From positions 1 through 49,686 of the IMG/VR virus record IMGVR_UViG_3300031885_000024: a DNA stretch of 49,686 nt; one strand, given 5' to 3'. Below are positions 618-49,686 of this stretch, one piece after another. The notes below the pieces were generated by a model. It was not told where the DNA came from, searched no databases, and saw only the letters and a list, made by a program, of their open reading frames with translations. The stretch is from a virus. The first letter of the stretch is position 1, and every line of letters begins with the position of its first letter. Position numbers and translations under genes: made by a program.

Positions 618-1835
618 CTAATCGTTAGCGAAGTAGTATCTCGTAGTTCCCACCTGCTTGAACAATAGATCACCACACTGAATACATCCTCTCAACAACT
701 CCATCAGCTTGTTCGGTTCTGCAACGCTACGGAACTGTGCAAGAATCTCTTCCTCTGCAACTTCTCCTCGTGTCAATACAAAACCTGTGATAGCATCCAT
801 GTCGAACACGAAGCGATTCTCACCCACACCACCAAAGATCTTGCCAAGTTGAGCTTCGGTAGATTCCAGTGCTCTCACTGCCCAGTCGAAATCTTCTTTC
901 GTAATCAACAGTGAGTTACCCTTCGACACACTGTGGATGATGGCGAGTTTGAGAATCATCATAGGCTTGCGAGAATGATAACCTGCAAACCGTGCATCTA
1001 CTGGTGGAGATGAGGCGTGTCGATCATTCCACTCGTTTAGATAATCTTCCATCCCTTCATCTAGCTCCACCTCTCCAGCAAGATTAGATATCTCAATCAG
1101 ATCGTGGAGAAGATCCTTCTCTAGCTGGCCATCATCTCGTTCCTTCATTCGTGTGGTGTAGATGAGTCGAGGTGCTCTCAATCTCTCTTCGTAGATAAAG
1201 ATAACTCGACTCGCAAACCCACCACCGATTACACCTGCACTCATATTCTCACTAATCCATGCAGGAGTTGTAGCAGAGAACATATTGAGCGAGGGGCGAA
1301 GTCCAACCTGTACACCACGCATCATCGTACCAACTTCCAAACTCTCTTTGTTATCATACATTGAGGTAAGGAAGTCGTACATCTCGCCGGGTTTGTTCTT
1401 CTGCATCAAGTCTCCAAACTCACCGACCATAAGATAGACGGAAGTATCTGGAGTCTCGATCATCTGTTGAGTGATGAGTTCCTTCGTGAAGAAGGACGGA
1501 CCCTTACGAAGGCCAGGAACTTGTGTGAGAAGTTTTGCAGAGAAGCTCGTCATGCTCGTAGTCTTTCTCATTCCAGGAGGACCGACGAACATCAAGTAAA
1601 GATGCGGGAAACATTCCCATGAACCAAGATGCTTCTCGGAAATCTTTACTTGTCTGCGAAGGGCTGCTGCGATGGTGTAGATGCCAGACCAAAAGACGTA
1701 AGCGGAAGGAGAATCGGTGCGGGGTAATGCCCACTCTGCGAAACTATCAATCCAATTCTCCAACCGTCGCTTTCCAGTCTGCTCATCTTCACCAAGATTA
1801 AGCTGCTTCTTCCCATCGTTCGGGATAGATGTCAC
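618..1835 (-). CDS. DUF3987-like replicative helicase/ATPase
   Basis: A 405-residue P-loop protein, probably the replication helicase. Residues ~83-92 hold the Walker A-like FVGPPGMRKTTS, in which the usual GK is RK. A hydrophobic strand ending LMVGEFGDLM (~140) is the candidate Walker B. The C-terminus (~340-405) looks like a small winged-helix tail. Overall it resembles phage DUF3987/DnaB-type helicases. The start is a GTG overlapping the end of the polymerase palm gene by 38 bases; no later in-frame ATG would keep the N-terminus. It follows polymerase directly, which supports a replisome role. No primase domain is recognisable in it. Confidence 0.6.
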   Translation of the reverse strand: MTSIPNDGKKQLNLGEDEQTGKRRLENWIDSFAEWALPRTDSPSAYVFWSGIYTIAAALRRQVKISEKHLGSWECFPHLYLMFVGPPGMRKTTSMTSFSAKLLTQVPGLRKGPSFFTKELITQQMIETPDTSVYLMVGEFGDLMQKNKPGEMYDFLTSMYDNKESLEVGTMMRGVQVGLRPSLNMFSATTPAWISENMSAGVIGGGFASRVIFIYEERLRAPRLIYTTRMKERDDGQLEKDLLHDLIEISNLAGEVELDEGMEDYLNEWNDRHASSPPVDARFAGYHSRKPMMILKLAIIHSVSKGNSLLITKEDFDWAVRALESTEAQLGKIFGGVGENRFVFDMDAITGFVLTRGEVAEEEILAQFRSVAEPNKLMELLRGCIQCGDLLFKQVGTTRYYFAND

Positions 1836-2589
1836 AGTCCACCGGAATAGTAAAGGTTTCTCCGTTCACCATCAACGGACGCTTTAAGATAGAAACAGTT
1901 TGCTCAGCAATCTCGCTGATCAGAGCCTTCGGAGTCTCCAATACAACTGAGTCGTGAGCAGTCTGAATCATCTTGATTTCTTTCTTAGATGGTAGAATGA
2001 TCTTTCGATAGATCGTCAGTAGTCCGCCCTCGATACCCAACTCAGGCTGAACTGCTCCATTCATGTGGTCGGCGACTGTAGACTGAGGAACATATGCGGT
2101 TGCTTCTTTAAGGAGATCATCATTCCAGAGTCCGAAGAAGTATCGCTGGCGTTTGTATGGAGTGATGAGTGTTCTTGTGGATCGTAGCTTATCGTCAATT
2201 TCTGCCCACCACATTCGAACGTTAAATGCACTGTGCCAACGTTCGTAATAGGTCTTGGCTTGCGGGAGAGAAACCGTAACAATGCCCTCTTTGTTAATGG
2301 ACTCACAGAGTTTTCCAGCAGAAGTTCGATAGTTAAGGGAATGGTTTCCTTTCTTACCGACATATCGTTCACTCTTTGTGATGAGGTTAACGGGTTTCTG
2401 GAAGATGATTGAGGCTGCATATTTGTGAAGATCACCGTCTGCGAGTTCTCGCTTCATGTTCTCATCGCGAGCGAGATAGGCTACAACCCACGCTTCTGCT
2501 GCGGACAAGTCAACAGAGATGAGAGAGCAACCTTCTCGCGCACGGATGATAGAGCGAAAGGGATACTTCACTTTCTCACTTGTAGTCAT
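1798..2589 (-). CDS. Family A DNA polymerase, C-terminal palm/fingers part (split gene)
   Basis: 263 residues covering only the catalytic C-terminus of a PolA-type polymerase. Motif A is SVDLSAAEAW (D27, E32). Motif B is RYVGKKGNHSLNY (R75, K79, Y87), and the residue matching E. coli F762 is His83. The PQSTVADH segment (~169) matches the conserved QGTAAD region. Motif C is AHDSVVLE (H212, D213), with Ser in place of the usual Glu. The thumb, the exonuclease and the TGR motif lie in the gene at 2978-4588. Two small genes sit between the parts, and this gene starts 14 bases before the end of the second. The two chains presumably assemble into one enzyme (inference). Confidence 0.88.
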   Translation of the reverse strand: MTTSEKVKYPFRSIIRAREGCSLISVDLSAAEAWVVAYLARDENMKRELADGDLHKYAASIIFQKPVNLITKSERYVGKKGNHSLNYRTSAGKLCESINKEGIVTVSLPQAKTYYERWHSAFNVRMWWAEIDDKLRSTRTLITPYKRQRYFFGLWNDDLLKEATAYVPQSTVADHMNGAVQPELGIEGGLLTIYRKIILPSKKEIKMIQTAHDSVVLETPKALISEIAEQTVSILKRPLMVNGETFTIPVDCDIYPERWEEAA

Positions 2590-2803
2590 ACTTTCCCCTT
2601 GTTCCTACATACCTATCAGTGATGTCAGCGGGAATGGGAAGCATAACGATGTTCTTAAACTGCTCGATGAACTCAGAGAAGTGGTGTCGATCACGGAAGG
2701 AGATGTAGGAATTTGCCTTCACGTCTGTAATGTGAATGACTCCACCATCATGCTCTTCGACTTTGTAAGTATTCTTGAGGGTCTTGATTGTTGCGGTCAT
2801 CAT
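2576..2803 (-). CDS. Small protein between polymerase parts (75 aa)
   Basis: A 75-residue protein of unknown function, starting at tandem ATGs (2803/2800) with AGAGG just upstream. It has alternating beta-like segments and an aromatic, histidine-rich stretch (RDRHHFSEF) but no family I recognise. It lies between the two polymerase genes and overlaps the palm gene start by 14 bases, so translation is probably coupled. It is not a homing endonuclease by motif (no HNH, GIY-YIG or LAGLIDADG). Confidence 0.7.
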   Translation of the reverse strand: MMTATIKTLKNTYKVEEHDGGVIHITDVKANSYISFRDRHHFSEFIEQFKNIVMLPIPADITDRYVGTRGKYDYK

Positions 2804-2807
2804 ACCT

Positions 2808-2981
2808 CTACCTACCCTCCCAGTTACTAGTCTGGATTACATATCGCTTTCCAGCCTTTACAATGTAACGAACTTGCCCATCTTCCAGCTTAACAATAAG
2901 CTTTCTCCGCTGTGGGATGAGCTTCTTGATGTGAGCAGGAAAGGTAAACTTGCCGAAGCCTTGAATCCTCTGGGTAATCAT
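2808..2981 (-). CDS. Small basic protein between polymerase parts (57 aa)
   Basis: The ATG overlaps the stop of the UDG-polymerase gene (ATGA). The 57-residue product begins MITQRIQGFG, is rich in Lys/Arg and ends in TSNWEGR. It resembles a small beta-barrel or nucleic-acid-binding fold but has no recognised motif. The gene is too short for usual ORF cut-offs. Tight overlap with polymerase on one side and a 4-base gap to the next small gene support it being real. It could be a linker or accessory subunit of the split polymerase (speculative). Confidence 0.65.
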   Translation of the reverse strand: MITQRIQGFGKFTFPAHIKKLIPQRRKLIVKLEDGQVRYIVKAGKRYVIQTSNWEGR

Positions 2982-4588
2982 ACCTCAATCTCCTCTCGGG
3001 GAAGGGTTTGTGCGTTGAACCCACTACCATCCACATAGTTACTTGCACTCCATCTTCCTGTTTCCGTTCCACTCACCTTATAGCTGGATCGAATTCTTCC
3101 ATCCGGCGAGAGCTTGATGTTGAGGTAAGATGAGATGAGCTTTTCGTAACCACGAACGAGAAGGAGAAGTTTCAATGCTGAAAGTTTGAACAGCCAATCC
3201 TGCTTACTCTTATCTGTCTTTCGATTGTCCATCTCTTTCTGAGAGTAGGAGATAAGAGAGACGAGCGCATCTTCGTTTGTGGTAACCTTGTTCTCTCGAT
3301 TGCTTCGAGTTGGGAGGCTGAGCTTCTTATGAAGGAACTCGATTACTTGTTTCGGAGATGCTGTGTTGAATGGCTGACCGTTGATTGCATAGAGATAACC
3401 GCGAGCGGTGTCGAGCTTGGCTGTGATGGAATCACGAATGAGATTGATTCGTTCAACATCAGGTTCCATTCCACTTTCTTGTAGATGAAGTGCTACGGGA
3501 ATGATGGACATCTGATAGTTGAAGGTGTTTCTCATCAGTGGATTCTTATCGAGGATCTCTTCTTGCTTCTCTCGTGTCTCGAAAGTTACAATGCAGTCTT
3601 TGCAGTTGTAGTCCCAGAGAGTCTGTCGGAAGTTTGGAGAGGAATCTTTCCCGTCATCCTTATAGTATGGCTCGTCAGTGTATACGGAAGTACAGAAGTC
3701 GAGGCCGATTGGAAGCTCGGGGGCGATGACTCTCTGCGCGTACATGGTGTCGAAGTCATACTTATCTTCGGGGACGGTAATTCCATTTAGCCTCAGAACC
3801 TCTACGTCGAACAGACCGTTGTGGAAGGTTATTGAATTAGCAGCATCAAAGATGGATTGGACGGCCACCACAAACTCAGGATCAATGCCTTGACTAATAG
3901 GATAGCGATTGCGGATGCAGACAGCGTCCCGATTCGATAAACCGAATCCGATGCAGAGAATGTGAGTTGTTCCGCGGATGCTTTCGATGTCTGCTGTAAC
4001 AAAGGGCTTCGAACTAACTTTAGCGAGGAGAGCGTGGATTTCGCCAAGCGCATAATCCTCATCAAAATAATGTACAGGATTAGTGTAACCATCTTCTAGT
4101 ATCCTCTTTGCTTTACGTAGGTCGAACTCGATAATGGGAGGAACTTGTCCATCACTGAATGCCATCGCAGGGTGAATGGTCGGAAGGACATAGGATTTAT
4201 TGTGCCTCAGAACCGAACCTCTCCACTTCGTAATCCCTTCACACCCAGTAAGAAACTTGAGTGCTTCGTTTCCCATTGCAATGATGATCTTGGGAGAGTG
4301 AGAAGAGAGGTAGGAGATTAGTTCTGATTTTCCTTCGAGGAGTTGTTGCGAACCGTGAAGGAGTTTGAAATCATTCCCTTTCGGTTGGTAGTTACAGACA
4401 TTTCCGATGCGGCAAGACGCTCGGCTAATCCCAACCAGTGAGAGTAGATGGTCAAGGAATTCTCCTGTGCGACCAACGAAAGGTATTCCTTGTAGGTTAT
4501 CATCTTCTCCTGGAGCTTCACCGAGGATGAAGATGTCTGCGTTTTCTGGTCCGACATGGTTAACTTTCTTGTGAGAGATGTGGCTCAT
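2978..4588 (-). CDS. Uracil-DNA glycosylase / 3'-5' exonuclease / PolA thumb fusion
   Basis: 536 residues from the ATG at 4588 (ATGA overlap with the upstream stop; a GTG at 4597 would add three residues). Residues ~20-150 are a family 4/5-type UDG with GEAPGE, FVGRTG and IHPAMA motifs. Residues ~195-350 are a DnaQ-type exonuclease: ADIE (Exo I), FHNGLFD (Exo II) and YNCKD (Exo III) are all present, so proofreading is probably active. The C-terminus holds the polymerase thumb and the TETGRWSA motif, then stops before motif A. The palm is encoded separately at 1798-2589. The UDG lacks an obvious N-terminal iron-sulfur cysteine pair. Confidence 0.88.
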   Translation of the reverse strand: MSHISHKKVNHVGPENADIFILGEAPGEDDNLQGIPFVGRTGEFLDHLLSLVGISRASCRIGNVCNYQPKGNDFKLLHGSQQLLEGKSELISYLSSHSPKIIIAMGNEALKFLTGCEGITKWRGSVLRHNKSYVLPTIHPAMAFSDGQVPPIIEFDLRKAKRILEDGYTNPVHYFDEDYALGEIHALLAKVSSKPFVTADIESIRGTTHILCIGFGLSNRDAVCIRNRYPISQGIDPEFVVAVQSIFDAANSITFHNGLFDVEVLRLNGITVPEDKYDFDTMYAQRVIAPELPIGLDFCTSVYTDEPYYKDDGKDSSPNFRQTLWDYNCKDCIVTFETREKQEEILDKNPLMRNTFNYQMSIIPVALHLQESGMEPDVERINLIRDSITAKLDTARGYLYAINGQPFNTASPKQVIEFLHKKLSLPTRSNRENKVTTNEDALVSLISYSQKEMDNRKTDKSKQDWLFKLSALKLLLLVRGYEKLISSYLNIKLSPDGRIRSSYKVSGTETGRWSASNYVDGSGFNAQTLPREEIEV

Positions 4589-5040
4589 CCTTTCCACCTA
4601 TCGTCTGTGCCAGAGTTACGAGTTACATAAGTGAGAAGAAACATGATGCAACACGCTGCATGAGCAAGGTGAGAGAATCCCGTTTCGGGATCATTATCTT
4701 CTCCCTTCCACCACGCCCACATATGACGCATCAATGCACCAAAGGGACGTGACCACTTCATACCTTTCTCCCAGTTTCTATCTTCGTACTTCTTTGCACC
4801 ATACGCGAGGACGATCGAGAGTGATTCGATCATTTCTGGTGCAATGAGTTCGGGGCGAAGCTTCTTGTCTCCGTCGAACTTTACTCCTTCTTTCAGCTTG
4901 TCTGGATCAGGGACTCCAAGCATGAAGTTTTTTCCTAGGTAGGTTTGTTCATACATCTTAGCAAATTTACAAGCCTTTCTGTCCTGACAAGATAAATCAA
5001 AGCAGTTCAAGCCGCCTGAACAGTAGCTTATATTACTCAT
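4585..5040 (-). CDS. dATP/dGTP diphosphohydrolase-like protein
   Basis: 151 residues resembling the phage dATP/dGTP diphosphohydrolase N-terminal family (DUF5664 type). Evidence is the block YGAKKYEDRNWEKGMKW followed by a histidine-rich helix RHMWAWWKGE and SHLAHAACC. The N-terminus has four extra cysteines (CSGG..CFDLSC..KAC), a possible metal site. It probably trims the purine dNTP pool. The start ATG overlaps the upstream stop (TGATG) and the 3' end overlaps the UDG-polymerase start. No PurZ gene is visible, so a link to modified purines is not supported. Confidence 0.65.
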   Translation of the reverse strand: MSNISYCSGGLNCFDLSCQDRKACKFAKMYEQTYLGKNFMLGVPDPDKLKEGVKFDGDKKLRPELIAPEMIESLSIVLAYGAKKYEDRNWEKGMKWSRPFGALMRHMWAWWKGEDNDPETGFSHLAHAACCIMFLLTYVTRNSGTDDRWKG

Positions 5041-13649: not shown

Positions 13650-15497
13650 TTATCGGTTAGTCTTGAGAAGATCAATCAACTCACTCATGATACTATTCTG
13701 TTCGGTAGCGTATCCCGCTGTACCATCTACCGCAGCTTCGAAGATAGCCATCTTCTTCATGAGAAGTGAAAGGATGAGTGTATCTACAGTGTTAGAAATC
13801 TGTGCCCATACACTTGTTGCACCGTGCAAATCTACCAATCTACCATACGCTCGCGCTTCACCTTGTGTAATATCTTTCGGTGTCCACGGTAGATCGTTGA
13901 AGTAGATTGTAGATGCAGCGGTAAGGTTGAGTCCTTCTTGTCCAGTCGCTACAGTGAGAACTAGCCCACGTGTGGATGGATTGTTGTTGAAGTCATTCAC
14001 ATATCCCATGCGAGTTTCCATCGGGATGTCACCGTGAATAACATTCCAACCCATCTTTGCTGCAATCTGCTTTGCGGACATCTTGAAGTTAGAGAAGACG
14101 ATGATCTTCTCATCTGTTTCTTCAAGGAAGTTGTTGAGATATTCGATAGATGCATCAGCCTTAGCATCAGCGACAATCTCACGCAAGCGATTGAGTTGGA
14201 CGAGTGTGTTCTGAATATCTTTCTCGCCACCATCAATAGTCTTGTAGACCATTTCAAGTGCAGCTTTGTAGCGTTCCTTGTGAAGGGGAGAGAGGTCTAC
14301 AGAATGAGTGATGCGTGTAATGGGAGGCAAGTCAGTAAGAACATCTTTCTTCGCACGACGGAACATGTATGGAAGGAGAGCTTTCTGTAACTCCTTCGGA
14401 TTCTTGGGGAATCCATTTCCATTGTCGTGTGTGTTGAGAAAGGATTGCTCCGATGGAAACATATCGGGAGCTACCCAGTGGAGGAGGGGAAAGAGTTCTC
14501 GAATACGATTGACAAGGGGAGTACCAGTCATCGGCATCTTTCGCTTGATCTTCAACTTAAGGATAGCTTTCGTACGCTTCGCGTTCATATTCTTGAACGA
14601 GTGAGCTTCGTCAGCAGGACAGAAGTCTAGAAGATTTGCAGCTGATACAATGTTGAGGAAGTCTACCCAGGGATATGAGATAACTTCTTCATCATCATCA
14701 GCAAATTCAAGTTTCTTCGTGACAAGTTCTGTTCCGATAACTTCATAGTTGAGGATGAAGTATTGGAATTCCGTAGAGAGGAGAGCTTTCATGCAACTCT
14801 CATCGGGAACTCTACCCGAGAGGATAACGGGACGTTTCGATGTAAGCTTGCGAATCTCGGCATCTAGATTCTGCACGAGAGATGCTTTGGTAAGGAAGAT
14901 GGTGCGATAGTTGCGAGACTCTGCAAACTTAATCGCCACGGCTGTCTTACCTAGACCCATATCCAATGCAAGGATCTTATCATCTTCATTGTAATCCATG
15001 TAGCGAAATGCCGCTGCTTGGAATGGACGAAGAGTGATTGGACCAAGGATGTGATCTACTTCGGGAGCATCGTTCGCAACTGCATACTCATATGCTTTGC
15101 GCTCTCTTTCAAGAACACTACGCACATAGAATGCTACAGCAGGATCGATGGTGAAACGATAATGCTTGTACTCAGTGGAGAGAATCGTATAGAGCTTAGG
15201 AGATTCTTCCAATGGGATATGAAAGGAACCATATCCGCTAGCGTACTTGTAGTCAGCGAAGGGAGTTGGTGAGAAGAAAGAACCTTGCGCGACTGTCACC
15301 AATACTCGCGTTGCTCCCATCTTTCTAATGTCAATATTGAAAGAGGGCGGAGTGGCAATGGGAGTATTATCGGGAGTGAGGTAAGACTTGGGTTTCGGGG
15401 GTGCAGTGATAGCAGTTTGAAAGGTGGGAAGTACCATCTCTTTCTCTGCTTGTGATCGCGGGTCGATCGGAAAGTCGTTAGATGAGATGGTATTCAT
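13650..15497 (-). CDS. SNF2-family DEAH helicase
   Basis: 615 residues. Motif I DMGLGKTA (~179-186), motif II DEAH (~296-299), motif III MTGTPL, motif IV/V region IIVFSNFKMS and GQEGLNL, motif VI QGEARAYGR. The SNF2 layout is complete but motif VI is slightly degenerate (usually Q..R..R). The ~140-residue N-terminal region is unlike known domains. Role: probably remodelling of replication or recombination intermediates. The ATG overlaps the upstream stop. Confidence 0.85.
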   Translation of the reverse strand: MNTISSNDFPIDPRSQAEKEMVLPTFQTAITAPPKPKSYLTPDNTPIATPPSFNIDIRKMGATRVLVTVAQGSFFSPTPFADYKYASGYGSFHIPLEESPKLYTILSTEYKHYRFTIDPAVAFYVRSVLERERKAYEYAVANDAPEVDHILGPITLRPFQAAAFRYMDYNEDDKILALDMGLGKTAVAIKFAESRNYRTIFLTKASLVQNLDAEIRKLTSKRPVILSGRVPDESCMKALLSTEFQYFILNYEVIGTELVTKKLEFADDDEEVISYPWVDFLNIVSAANLLDFCPADEAHSFKNMNAKRTKAILKLKIKRKMPMTGTPLVNRIRELFPLLHWVAPDMFPSEQSFLNTHDNGNGFPKNPKELQKALLPYMFRRAKKDVLTDLPPITRITHSVDLSPLHKERYKAALEMVYKTIDGGEKDIQNTLVQLNRLREIVADAKADASIEYLNNFLEETDEKIIVFSNFKMSAKQIAAKMGWNVIHGDIPMETRMGYVNDFNNNPSTRGLVLTVATGQEGLNLTAASTIYFNDLPWTPKDITQGEARAYGRLVDLHGATSVWAQISNTVDTLILSLLMKKMAIFEAAVDGTAGYATEQNSIMSELIDLLKTNR

Positions 15498-16652: not shown

Positions 16653-17189
16653 TTACTTGTTCAGACCCAGCAGCGCCATGAGTTCGGCCGCCAGCTGCAT
16701 CGGATTGTCCTTGTACTGCTCGGCAATCTGTGCAGCCTTCTCCTGCGTAGCCTTGAGCGAAACACGACCGCTCGACTTCTCGGTCTCGACGAAGATGTTA
16801 ACTTCATCCGCCGCATCACGAACGAAATCAGCAAGATCAGCCGGAAGGATCTTGGAATCAATCACGCGCGAGCGAACGATGCGAACAGTCTCGTTACGTT
16901 CAGCGGTATTGATAAGATCAAGGACGGCCGTCTCAAACTGTGCGGGAGCTACTCCCTTCGATTCTGCATGAGCGCGAGCATCGGCGATCGACGAATATTC
17001 ACGAACGAGAATCGCAACGGGCGAAACCTTAATCACCGGAACGTTCTTCGCATTTTCACCATCACCAATCTTCTTCGACGGGAGATGCGGATAGTCGGAA
17101 GACTTGAGATTGTTCGCAGTGAACTCGAAAAACTTCGCTTCGCCCTTCGCAGTCTCGCCCTTGCCGGATGCAACCAGAGTGTACGACAT
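16653..17189 (-). CDS. Probable abundant early protein (178 aa)
   Basis: 178 residues, GAGG before the ATG. Codon choice is more GC-rich and regular than in neighbours (like the SSB-like and capsid genes), which suggests high expression. Segments include VSPVAILVREYSSIADARA and a long helical C-terminus (KAAQIAEQYKDNPMQLAAE). No family recognised. It lies behind the 17.7 kb promoter and in front of a long hairpin, which also fits a major early product. Confidence 0.7.
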   Translation of the reverse strand: MSYTLVASGKGETAKGEAKFFEFTANNLKSSDYPHLPSKKIGDGENAKNVPVIKVSPVAILVREYSSIADARAHAESKGVAPAQFETAVLDLINTAERNETVRIVRSRVIDSKILPADLADFVRDAADEVNIFVETEKSSGRVSLKATQEKAAQIAEQYKDNPMQLAAELMALLGLNK

Positions 17190-17545: not shown

Positions 17546-17630
17546 TAGTCTACCGTGGAATCGAACCACGCTAAGAGAGCAAAGGAAACCGGAGAGAAAA
17601 CTCTGCTACAATCTTAGGCCATCGTAGACC
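17546..17630 (-). ncRNA. tRNA-like structure in leader of early transcript
   Basis: Minus strand: acceptor GGTCTAC/GTAGACT (7 pairs, one G-T) with discriminator A, and a perfect T arm CGTGG-TTCGATT-CCACG. Total ~85 bases, the length of a class II tRNA. The D region can form CGAT/ATTG, but the anticodon region gives only AGAG-TTTT-CTCT, with no standard 7-base loop. It starts ~57 bases after the predicted start of transcription. It could be a decayed tRNA, an intron-bearing tRNA or a tRNA mimic. Confidence 0.6.
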
Positions 17631-18614: not shown

Positions 18615-18842
18615 TTAATCCTCGTGGTATTCATCCCAAAGGAGATCGTAGCAAGTTCCACAAATCCCAGAGAGAAGGAGTTCGCGCTTTTCCTCTGAGA
18701 GATATGGAAATGCAGCTTGAATGCGAAGTGTACCAACTTTCCACAAATAATAGTCATCCTGTTCTACTATGATTTCGTGGTGGGTTCCACACCCTAGACA
18801 ATTCTTTGAGACGTCTAGGAGATTATCGAATTCCTTGGTCAT
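18615..18842 (-). CDS. Small zinc-ribbon-like protein (75 aa)
   Basis: 75 residues with two Cys pairs, CLGCG (~15-19) and CGTCY (~61-65), separated by a helical stretch: a likely zinc-binding knuckle. Start overlaps the upstream gene by 20 bases. Function unknown. Confidence 0.65.
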   Translation of the reverse strand: MTKEFDNLLDVSKNCLGCGTHHEIIVEQDDYYLWKVGTLRIQAAFPYLSEEKRELLLSGICGTCYDLLWDEYHED

Positions 18843-19209
18843 CTATGTCATCTCTCCATCGTTTCGAGATAACAACACTAATACGTTCGATTAGTGTCGC
18901 TTCACTCGGGTTAAAAACGAGTTGCTCACTTCCACCTTCGCAGTCGGTAAGATGAAAGAATGTCCCTTCCGCTACTTCATATATCGAAACAGGAACGTCG
19001 GCATACTCACCATCCAAGGGCTTCAACATCTTGTGGACATCTGCTAGTTTATAGACCGCATAACGGTAGGTGGGGCTATCTCTCCACGTATCCGCAATGT
19101 GACCAAACTTATCCCGAGATGGCGCATGAAAGGAAGGTCTAAAACATACATCTAAGAGAGACCACGATGGACCAATTCCGTTAGCATCTTCTACGCGATA
19201 GACTCTCAT
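18823..19209 (-). CDS. Hypothetical protein (128 aa)
   Basis: The frame is open from 19467, but that N-terminal part is repeats and TA-runs from the origin region. ATG 19209 (MRVYRVEDAN) is the likely start, although no Shine-Dalgarno sequence is obvious. The domain is mixed alpha/beta with conserved-looking aromatic residues (YRYAVYKLADVHKML). First gene after the candidate origin. Function unknown. Confidence 0.6.
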   Translation of the reverse strand: MRVYRVEDANGIGPSWSLLDVCFRPSFHAPSRDKFGHIADTWRDSPTYRYAVYKLADVHKMLKPLDGEYADVPVSIYEVAEGTFFHLTDCEGGSEQLVFNPSEATLIERISVVISKRWRDDIDDQGIR

Positions 19210-19265
19210 ATCTATATGTAGAGGTTTGGGGTTGAAAGAGAGTGGAAGGGTGCTACAAAAAAGAA

Positions 19266-19311
19266 TTCTATCTGACAGATTCGAACTGTCAAGAGCCAGA
19301 ACTCTGATAGA
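19266..19311 (-). ncRNA. Mini tRNA-like fold lacking a D arm
   Basis: Minus strand: acceptor-like TCTATC/GATAGA, one hairpin AGAG-TTCTGG-CTCT, then a perfect T arm GACAG-TTCGAAT-CTGTC. Only ~46 bases, so no D arm. It may be a tRNA remnant or a mimic in the leader of the 19.2 kb gene. Confidence 0.45.
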
Positions 19312-19315
19312 AATA

Positions 19316-19580
19316 GTTCCCATGGTTTCCCACGGGTTCCCATCCTTTCCCATGGATTCCCATGAAAACCCTTGGTTTTCTGGGTATGGCGTACATCGGT
19401 CTAGGAGGGTGTCGTTGTTAGTAGTTATATTAATAAAAATTTTAAATATATATATATATATATACAACTACCTACCCTCCCCCCAACCTATGAATGCCAT
19501 ACCCAGAAAAACAAGAGAAAGCATGGGTAAGTATGGGTAATCGTGGGGATGCGTGGGAAAGCTGGGGAAAGCATGGGAAC
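19316..19580. other. Candidate replication origin: opposed iteron arrays around a TA core
   Basis: Left array 19316-19375: six 10-base units, consensus NTTCCCATGG (five good, one degenerate). Right array 19521-19580: six 10-base units, consensus GCATGGGAAA, i.e. the inverse. Between them TTTTCTGGGTATGGC (19376-19390) and its exact inverse (19496-19510), further partial symmetry (GGAGGGT/ACCCTCC), and a TA dinucleotide run at about 19446-19464. The 10-base period places each site on the same helix face. This is the architecture of an iteron origin with an unwinding element; function is inferred. Confidence 0.7.
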
Positions 19581-19638
19581 GAAAAAATAAATGTTGTAAC
19601 GAAAGAATAAAAGTTGCTAACTTTTGAAAGTTAGTGAA

Positions 19639-19680
19639 AATCCAAAAGGCCCAACAAAATTAATTGTTAGGCTTTGGAAA
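19639..19680 (-). terminator. Rho-independent-like terminator after the 123-aa gene
   Basis: Minus strand hairpin CCAAA..GCC.AACAA / TTGTT.GGC..TTTGG with small bulges, followed by ATTTT. It lies ~35 bases after the stop at 19715 and would insulate the origin from the upstream unit. Confidence 0.6.
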
Positions 19681-19714: not shown

Positions 19715-20086
19715 CTAAATGTCCATCGTTGCGAGAGTTGGCATGAGTTTCTCGCTCGCCGATGGAATGCTGTCCGCATTCTCTTGTACGAACTTCGCCC
19801 AACTTGCGTAACCTCTGGCGCGAATGATTGCGAACGCTGCTCGGCGCACCTGAGATTCGAGGTAGCTCAATCTCATCATGGCGCCGTTATCCATCATTGC
19901 GCGAACTGCTTCTATGTTCGCTTCGGGTAGGTTCGCTTCCTGCATCCGTGCCACCGTATCGGAAACCATCCTGACGTTAGCAGCGAGTGAATCACGCTCG
20001 GTGATATAACCGAGAACGTTCTCACGAGTGAAGCTGCTAAGTACTTCCTGAGCACTACGGCGCTTGTTCTTGTTCTTGCGTGACAT
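19715..20086 (-). CDS. Hypothetical protein (123 aa), own transcription unit
   Basis: ATG 20086 is preferred because GGAGA stands ~9 bases upstream; the frame is open further to 20293. N-terminus is basic (MSRKNKNKRRSAQEVL), the rest helical with two likely long helices (AANVRMVSDTVARMQEANL, LSYLESQVRRAAFAIIRA). The composition is GC-richer than neighbours. It has its own promoter-like region and a terminator, so it may be an immediate-early DNA-binding factor. No family recognised. Confidence 0.65.
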   Translation of the reverse strand: MSRKNKNKRRSAQEVLSSFTRENVLGYITERDSLAANVRMVSDTVARMQEANLPEANIEAVRAMMDNGAMMRLSYLESQVRRAAFAIIRARGYASWAKFVQENADSIPSASEKLMPTLATMDI

Positions 20087-49309: not shown

Positions 49310-49686
49310 ACGCTGTCCCCCTTCGCCGTGGCGGCGGTGCGGGCTACTATGCGAAGCGTTGTCTCAGCGGTACAAACACGGCAGCAACCCCCGTAGCCTT
49401 TTGTGTGCTCGCGTGTCTGCGCTTCGTGATCGTAGTTCGTAGCGATATCACGCAACGCAACGACGCATTCATCCAGCTTGGCGCGGAGTTGGGCAATCGT
49501 CCCCGCCGCCTGCGCCTGACACGCGGCCAATGCGTCGTCGGCGTCATCCCGCTCCTGCACCGCCGCGTCGCGCTCGGCTGCGAGGGCGTCGTAGGCTCCC
49601 AACAGTTCAGCGATGTTGCACACCGTGTCACCGCGCTGCGTGTACAGATATGAGCGGCCCTCTGCGAAGGCTTCACGTACCTCCGT
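49306..49686 (-). CDS. Chimeric coiled-coil protein, 3' part (open at right edge)
   Basis: The frame is open from the right edge to a stop at 49306. From the join it reads IAQLRAKLDECVVALRDIA, a short charged stretch with Cys pairs (GGCCRVC) and ends TAATAKGDSV. Together with 609-1 it would give a protein of ~270 residues. This copy lacks the 21-residue insert present at the left edge. Confidence 0.75.
   Translation of the reverse strand, partial: TEVREAFAEGRSYLYTQRGDTVCNIAELLGAYDALAAERDAAVQERDDADDALAACQAQAAGTIAQLRAKLDECVVALRDIATNYDHEAQTREHTKGYGGCCRVCTAETTLRIVARTAATAKGDSV
49516..49686. repeat. Right copy of contig-terminal overlap
   Basis: 171 bases equal to 1-234 except for a missing 63 bases. 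The exact 127-base block is 49560-49686. Confidence 0.8.

Follow-up and report, generated by a model that had tools for sequence, protein, structure and literature searches.

A probable phage replication origin built from mirror-image iteron arrays around an A/T core, with the same layout in related phages

Plasmid and lambda-like replication origins typically have iterons in helical phase next to an A/T element (PMC5043065). In herpes simplex virus OriS and OriL, boxes for the origin-binding protein UL9 are inversely oriented around an AT-rich spacer (PMC12543377), and oriL and oriR of phage SPP1 consist of direct repeats plus an AT-rich unwinding element (PMC6316719). Here we describe an element of ~260 bases in the virus contig IMGVR_UViG_3300031885_000024, in which two sets of six similar 10-base units face each other across an A/T core. 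The whole stretch of DNA analysed, 49,686 nucleotides, is called the window below. In archaeal oriC and in polyoma/papilloma-type origins, inverted initiator sites surround an A/T-rich core, an arrangement that suits head-to-head loading of two helicases. No Orc1/Cdc6, large-T or E1 homologue was noticed here.

The element is nearest in layout to herpes OriS and may work like initiator-dependent origins in general (PMC5043065, PMC12543377). As in OriS and OriL, inverse sites lie on both sides of an AT-rich spacer, whereas the herpes origins have single boxes in place of the six phased 10-bp units found here on each side. With lambda ori and iteron plasmids the element shares repeated candidate initiator sites, helical phase and an adjoining A/T-rich unwinding region. 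However, the four iterons of lambda are 18 bp long and all lie on one side, within gene O, and a lambda-type ori was rejected for the window, where two facing 10-bp arrays lie on both sides of the A/T region and outside any recognised gene. SPP1 likewise offers a phage origin with repeats and an AT-rich unwinding element; it differs in having direct repeats, two origins per genome and gp38/gp39/gp40, compared to one mirror site and a DUF3987/PolA module here.

The window represents a virus contig that is complete or nearly so: the bases at its start are found again at 49516, giving a closed length of about 49.5 kb. Where the ends overlap (1-230 and 49516-49686), they disagree by about 60 bases within repeated sequence, and the closure of the circle therefore spans a small length difference. 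No DNA-level match was found among named phages, nor did a TerL profile scan of species genomes find a prophage or host. Leftward genes encode a DUF3987 ATPase, a uracil-DNA glycosylase (UDG) with a family-A polymerase (PolA), an AAA_24/Sak4-like protein, a PD-(D/E)XK nuclease and an SNF2 helicase; TerL and the structural module are encoded rightward, and the element lies near the switch between the two. The DUF3987 ATPase (618-1835, minus strand) is the candidate replicative helicase that would partner the element; DUF3987 has been predicted to be a helicase of mobile-element replication (PMC5862659). UDG, an exonuclease and the N-terminal part of the polymerase are encoded together at 2978-4597 (minus strand). 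UDG-PolA and DUF3987 were both present in all ten complete genomes checked (the window, G001, G010, G012, G013, G014, G015, MW202554, MW202489 and Mel-JY34; G numbers denote IMG/VR contigs). The polymerase gene as a whole (1798-4597, minus strand) is split into two ORFs with two tiny ORFs between them; a polymerase-ORF gap of about 240-560 nt also occurs in G001 and in distant relatives, and a search of the gap with Rfam brought up no intron.

The left iteron array occupies positions 19316-19375 (plus strand) and the right array 19520-19579 (minus strand), the left with TTCCCAYGG-like units of 10 bp and the right with inverted units, which bears out the original prediction of six 10-base units facing six inverse ones. 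The strict 10-base period also claimed there is seen in the phase of all units and in the exact spacing of five left-hand TTCCCA units (TTCCCA at 19317, 19327, 19337, 19347 and 19357); the sixth left unit is weaker and degenerate, with CCC at 19369. Each unit of the right array is inverted, bears GGG and keeps the 10-bp phase. Inside the arrays lie the halves of a perfect 15-bp inverted repeat, as had been noted from the letters: TTTTCTGGGTATGGC at 19376-19390 and GCCATACCCAGAAAA at 19496-19510 (plus-strand coordinates). A G/T-rich, C-poor tract (19391-19424, plus strand) leads into the core and is mirrored by a C/A-rich tract (19465-19495, plus strand). The central TA run of the prediction proved to be a 40-bp core of A and T only (19425-19464), a candidate DNA unwinding element. 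The two 20-bp direct repeats (19578-19621) adjoining the right array and the short palindrome CTAACTTTTGAAAGTTAG (about 19616-19634) are likewise present where they had been described. Further right, a terminator-like hairpin (19649-19672, minus strand) would end gene X ahead of the element; a strong hairpin stands at the same place in G001. Gene X (19715-20086, minus strand) encodes a 123-aa protein without assigned function.

Two ORFs cross the element, at 18823-19467 (minus strand) and 19226-19540 (plus strand). The first has no match in close relatives and the second matches only an overlapping ORF at the same place in G006; therefore neither looks like a gene, in keeping with the earlier statement that no gene lies inside.

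We scored self-similarity at a lag of 10 across the whole window. The two arrays were the top two sites (30/40 each), the next-best site was at 19427, inside the A/T core, and scores elsewhere in the window did not exceed 22. The left arm scored 33 against the inverted right arm, compared to a mean of 8.6 and a maximum of 17 in 2000 dinucleotide shuffles, and the mirror-symmetry score of the element was unmatched anywhere else in the window. The least stable 50-mer of the whole window is centred in the A/T core. The element thus combines tandem repeats resembling initiator sites, set in helical phase, with an adjoining, easily melted A/T-rich stretch, two features of an iteron origin with an unwinding element. 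As judged from sequence, it is most likely the phage's mirror-symmetric iteron/unwinding-element replication origin, as first proposed: the core is the weakest duplex, and the coincidence of symmetry with low stability recurs in distant relatives (see below).

The main rival to an origin is a transcription control region, with the arrays as operator or activator sites for a phage regulator of the leftward early promoter and the A/T core as promoter DNA. The element does lie between two leftward transcription units, and immediately left of the array the minus strand has a sigma-70-like promoter (TTGACA-16-TAGAAT, 11/12 positions; 19292-19265), with a similar sequence at the same place in G006. 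However, promoter-like sites in the region are no commoner than in shuffles (4 versus 3.4), and G004 has no obvious promoter there by eye. A single promoter needs neither two facing arrays nor a core that is the genome's weakest duplex. A regulon would have in-phase units at other places as well, whereas no second in-phase array of such units was found elsewhere in the window. Regulator sites can co-evolve with their regulator, and an operator region doing so could keep its geometry while its letters change, which counts against the origin. Overall, we regard transcription control as an improbable explanation of the element.

A minimal tRNA-like structure (19266-19312, minus strand) lies beside the left array and overlaps this promoter-like sequence in the window. 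It has a 7-bp acceptor-like helix, a 14-nt bridge and a T-arm with a TTCGAAT loop, lacks an anticodon arm, and drew no ARAGORN or Rfam call. Similar minimal structures are found beside the element in G006, G004 and G009, with helices that differ and still pair. A second, larger tRNA-like RNA at about 17546-17630 (minus strand), with a conserved UCUCCGGUU hairpin loop and again no ARAGORN call, is also present in G001, G004 and G006; of its 21 predicted pairs, 10 have changed on both sides among the four sequences and still pair.

Close relatives were reached via TerL and an early gene, and comprise the IMG/VR contigs G001 (49,062 bp), G004 (38,359 bp) and G006 (20,547 bp). All three are syntenic with the window, most shared proteins being roughly 40-90% identical. 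The original prediction was to fall if the arrays were missing from close relatives with the same replication genes; each of the three relatives whose sequence includes the locus has them, at the syntenic place and with the same layout and motif. The element there lies between the gene X homologue, which is on the same side in each, and the leftward operon. The order in this clade is a TTCCCA array, GGGTATGG, a G-rich, C-poor tract and the A/T core, followed by the mirror of all of these. When the eight half-sites of the four genomes were aligned, the register was kept and GGGTATGG, which lies within the inverted repeat, was retained in every one; the tracts, in which G exceeds C in all eight, vary, as does the length of the core. 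The small genes immediately left of the element differ among genomes, which means that the element is kept while its neighbours change. When IMG/VR was scanned with a DNA pattern of the close-clade layout, whose gap range is unable to match G004 or G001, only G006 and two chance matches resembling coding DNA came back.

The contig ends of G001 fall within its A/T core and the element is a long imperfect palindrome, both of which would suit a genome end or packaging site, either a terminus or a palindrome for telomere resolution. Nevertheless, the sequence runs on through the core in the window, G004, G006, the distant contigs and three named genomes, leaving G001 as the sole assembly that does not pass it, and no fixed genome end was seen; the window and several relatives close elsewhere. 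No resolvase-type gene was noticed among the scanned proteins. A/T stretches of 40-110 bp are a common cause of assembly breaks, and such a break is the simplest explanation for the ends of G001. We consider a genome end or packaging site extremely unlikely.

A partition site or an RNA hairpin/terminator element is very unlikely as well. In some plasmids, phased arrays on either side of a promoter serve as the partition site, and the palindrome would fold as RNA. Against this, neither a partition ATPase nor a filament gene stood out among those window proteins that were read or scanned, and Rfam returned only generic miRNA hairpins for the palindrome, sub-threshold, far below gathering scores and attributable to chance. 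A terminator does not need strict 10-bp iterons, and a separate terminator-like hairpin stands beside the element.

A TerL profile scan reached phages at 40-50% TerL identity; contigs numbered G016 and above are more remote. In eight of these phages (G008-G015), a long mirror-image element built around an A/T core lies between TerL and the replication side; its arm sequences, for example TTCCATCCATCCATGTGGATGG or CCATACACGTGTATGG, differ from those of the close clade. A mirror element is also present in three named phages with no more than about 28-30% identity in polymerase or TerL: MW202554 (35.8-36.0 kb), MW202489 (38.4-38.6 kb) and Microcystis phage Mel-JY34 (PP438425; 44.1-44.3 kb), each located by eye from A/T runs and symmetry and then by scan. 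The proposed search for the same layout in related phages thus found it in 14 relatives (three close and 11 distant, the latter being eight contigs and three named phages), often in different letters. Inversely oriented repeats resembling initiator sites flank an AT-rich spacer in the window and all 14.

With positions taken from the by-eye picks, the element was the strongest mirror-symmetric site in all 15 genomes. Because those positions had been chosen from A/T runs and symmetry, the scan was repeated with A/T runs masked and no positions supplied. In 14 of the 15 genomes the symmetry maximum then lay at most 55 bp from the least stable 50-mer, G008 being the exception. The same scan showed no such coincidence in lambda, T7 or Pf-WMP3, or in nine partial remote TerL loci. 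In arms outside the close clade, TTCC, a motif chosen from that clade, was enriched inward (45 inward versus 11 outward, about 15 expected). It should also be noted that in L060, a 59.7-kb contig whose TerL is 25% identical, the symmetry maximum falls on the least stable 50-mer at about 2570, which suggests that the layout reaches beyond the phage family of the window. Array geometry, mirror symmetry, duplex weakness and the conservation of layout and position are direct observations on these genomes.

GC skew, one of the checks named in the original prediction, gave no signal in the window or in G001. The skew minimum of distant relatives follows the switch in gene strand and lies mostly 1.4-2.6 kb from the element. 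Since skew is confounded with gene direction, we rejected it as proof of an origin.

No cognate initiator was recognised by sequence, profile or fold. Profile comparison of a 178-aa protein (A3, encoded at 16653-17189) with the small element-adjoining proteins of distant relatives (A4 and A5) gave no significant match; look-alike motifs are visible by eye. A4 had no PHROG match, the PDB gave no trustworthy sequence relative, and the predicted models of A3 (poor, pLDDT 47) and A4 (fair, 76) had no fold matches. The SNF2-type SF2 helicase (13650-15497, minus strand), the nearest large replication gene, occurs in the window and nine relatives and was rejected as a universal initiator: it was undetected in MW202554, MW202489 and Mel-JY34, all of which carry the element, and this leaves an SF2 initiator of the herpes kind unsupported as the general partner.

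Two DnaA-based readings were also rejected. The DnaA box TTWTNCACA occurs 0 times in the 49.7-kb window, compared to 3.35 expected by chance, which does not suit a DnaA-dependent oriC; the MW202554 element holds one perfect TTATCCACA. The GT/TAG-rich tracts were considered as DnaA-trios (TAG/TAA), and their in-phase counts in the eight half-sites were not above those of dinucleotide shuffles.

We infer initiator binding, melting, helicase loading and a bidirectional start as the steps of origin function. A phage-encoded initiator would bind both helically phased arrays, one per side and pointing inward, and assembly on both arms would strain and melt the A/T core, the weakest duplex of the genome. 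Two replicative helicases, for which the DUF3987 ATPase is the best candidate, would then be loaded in opposite directions, an outcome that the mirror arrays would permit. Forks would depart in both directions, one through the leftward replication genes and the other through the rightward structural genes, and elongation would fall to the UDG-PolA polymerase; both forks would be mostly co-directional with transcription. Phased iterons at the weakest duplex, a single site per genome, geometry and position kept while the letters change, and a self-contained replication module may together be the trace of a co-evolving initiator-origin pair.

A description of such a layout was not found in the open-licence literature, parts of a few papers being covered, and the element apparently belongs to an undescribed family of phage origins. 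More tentatively, and with the balance somewhat against it, these sites may form a class of phage origin that is distinct, widespread and linked to a UDG-PolA/DUF3987 replisome. In such a class, mirror initiator arrays would surround the weakest duplex, and a pair of DUF3987-type helicases would be loaded head to head in the absence of DnaA, in the manner of some eukaryotic viruses; each lineage would rewrite the arm sequence and keep the geometry.

Phage origins are known for few model phages, and those of uncultured phages are mostly unplaced. The two-part signature described here, a symmetry maximum on a stability minimum, picks out a single genomic site in each of 14 phages among the 15 related ones, including Mel-JY34, whose record names a host. 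It makes the putative origin, its fast-changing recognition motif and the initiator that would bind it directly testable.
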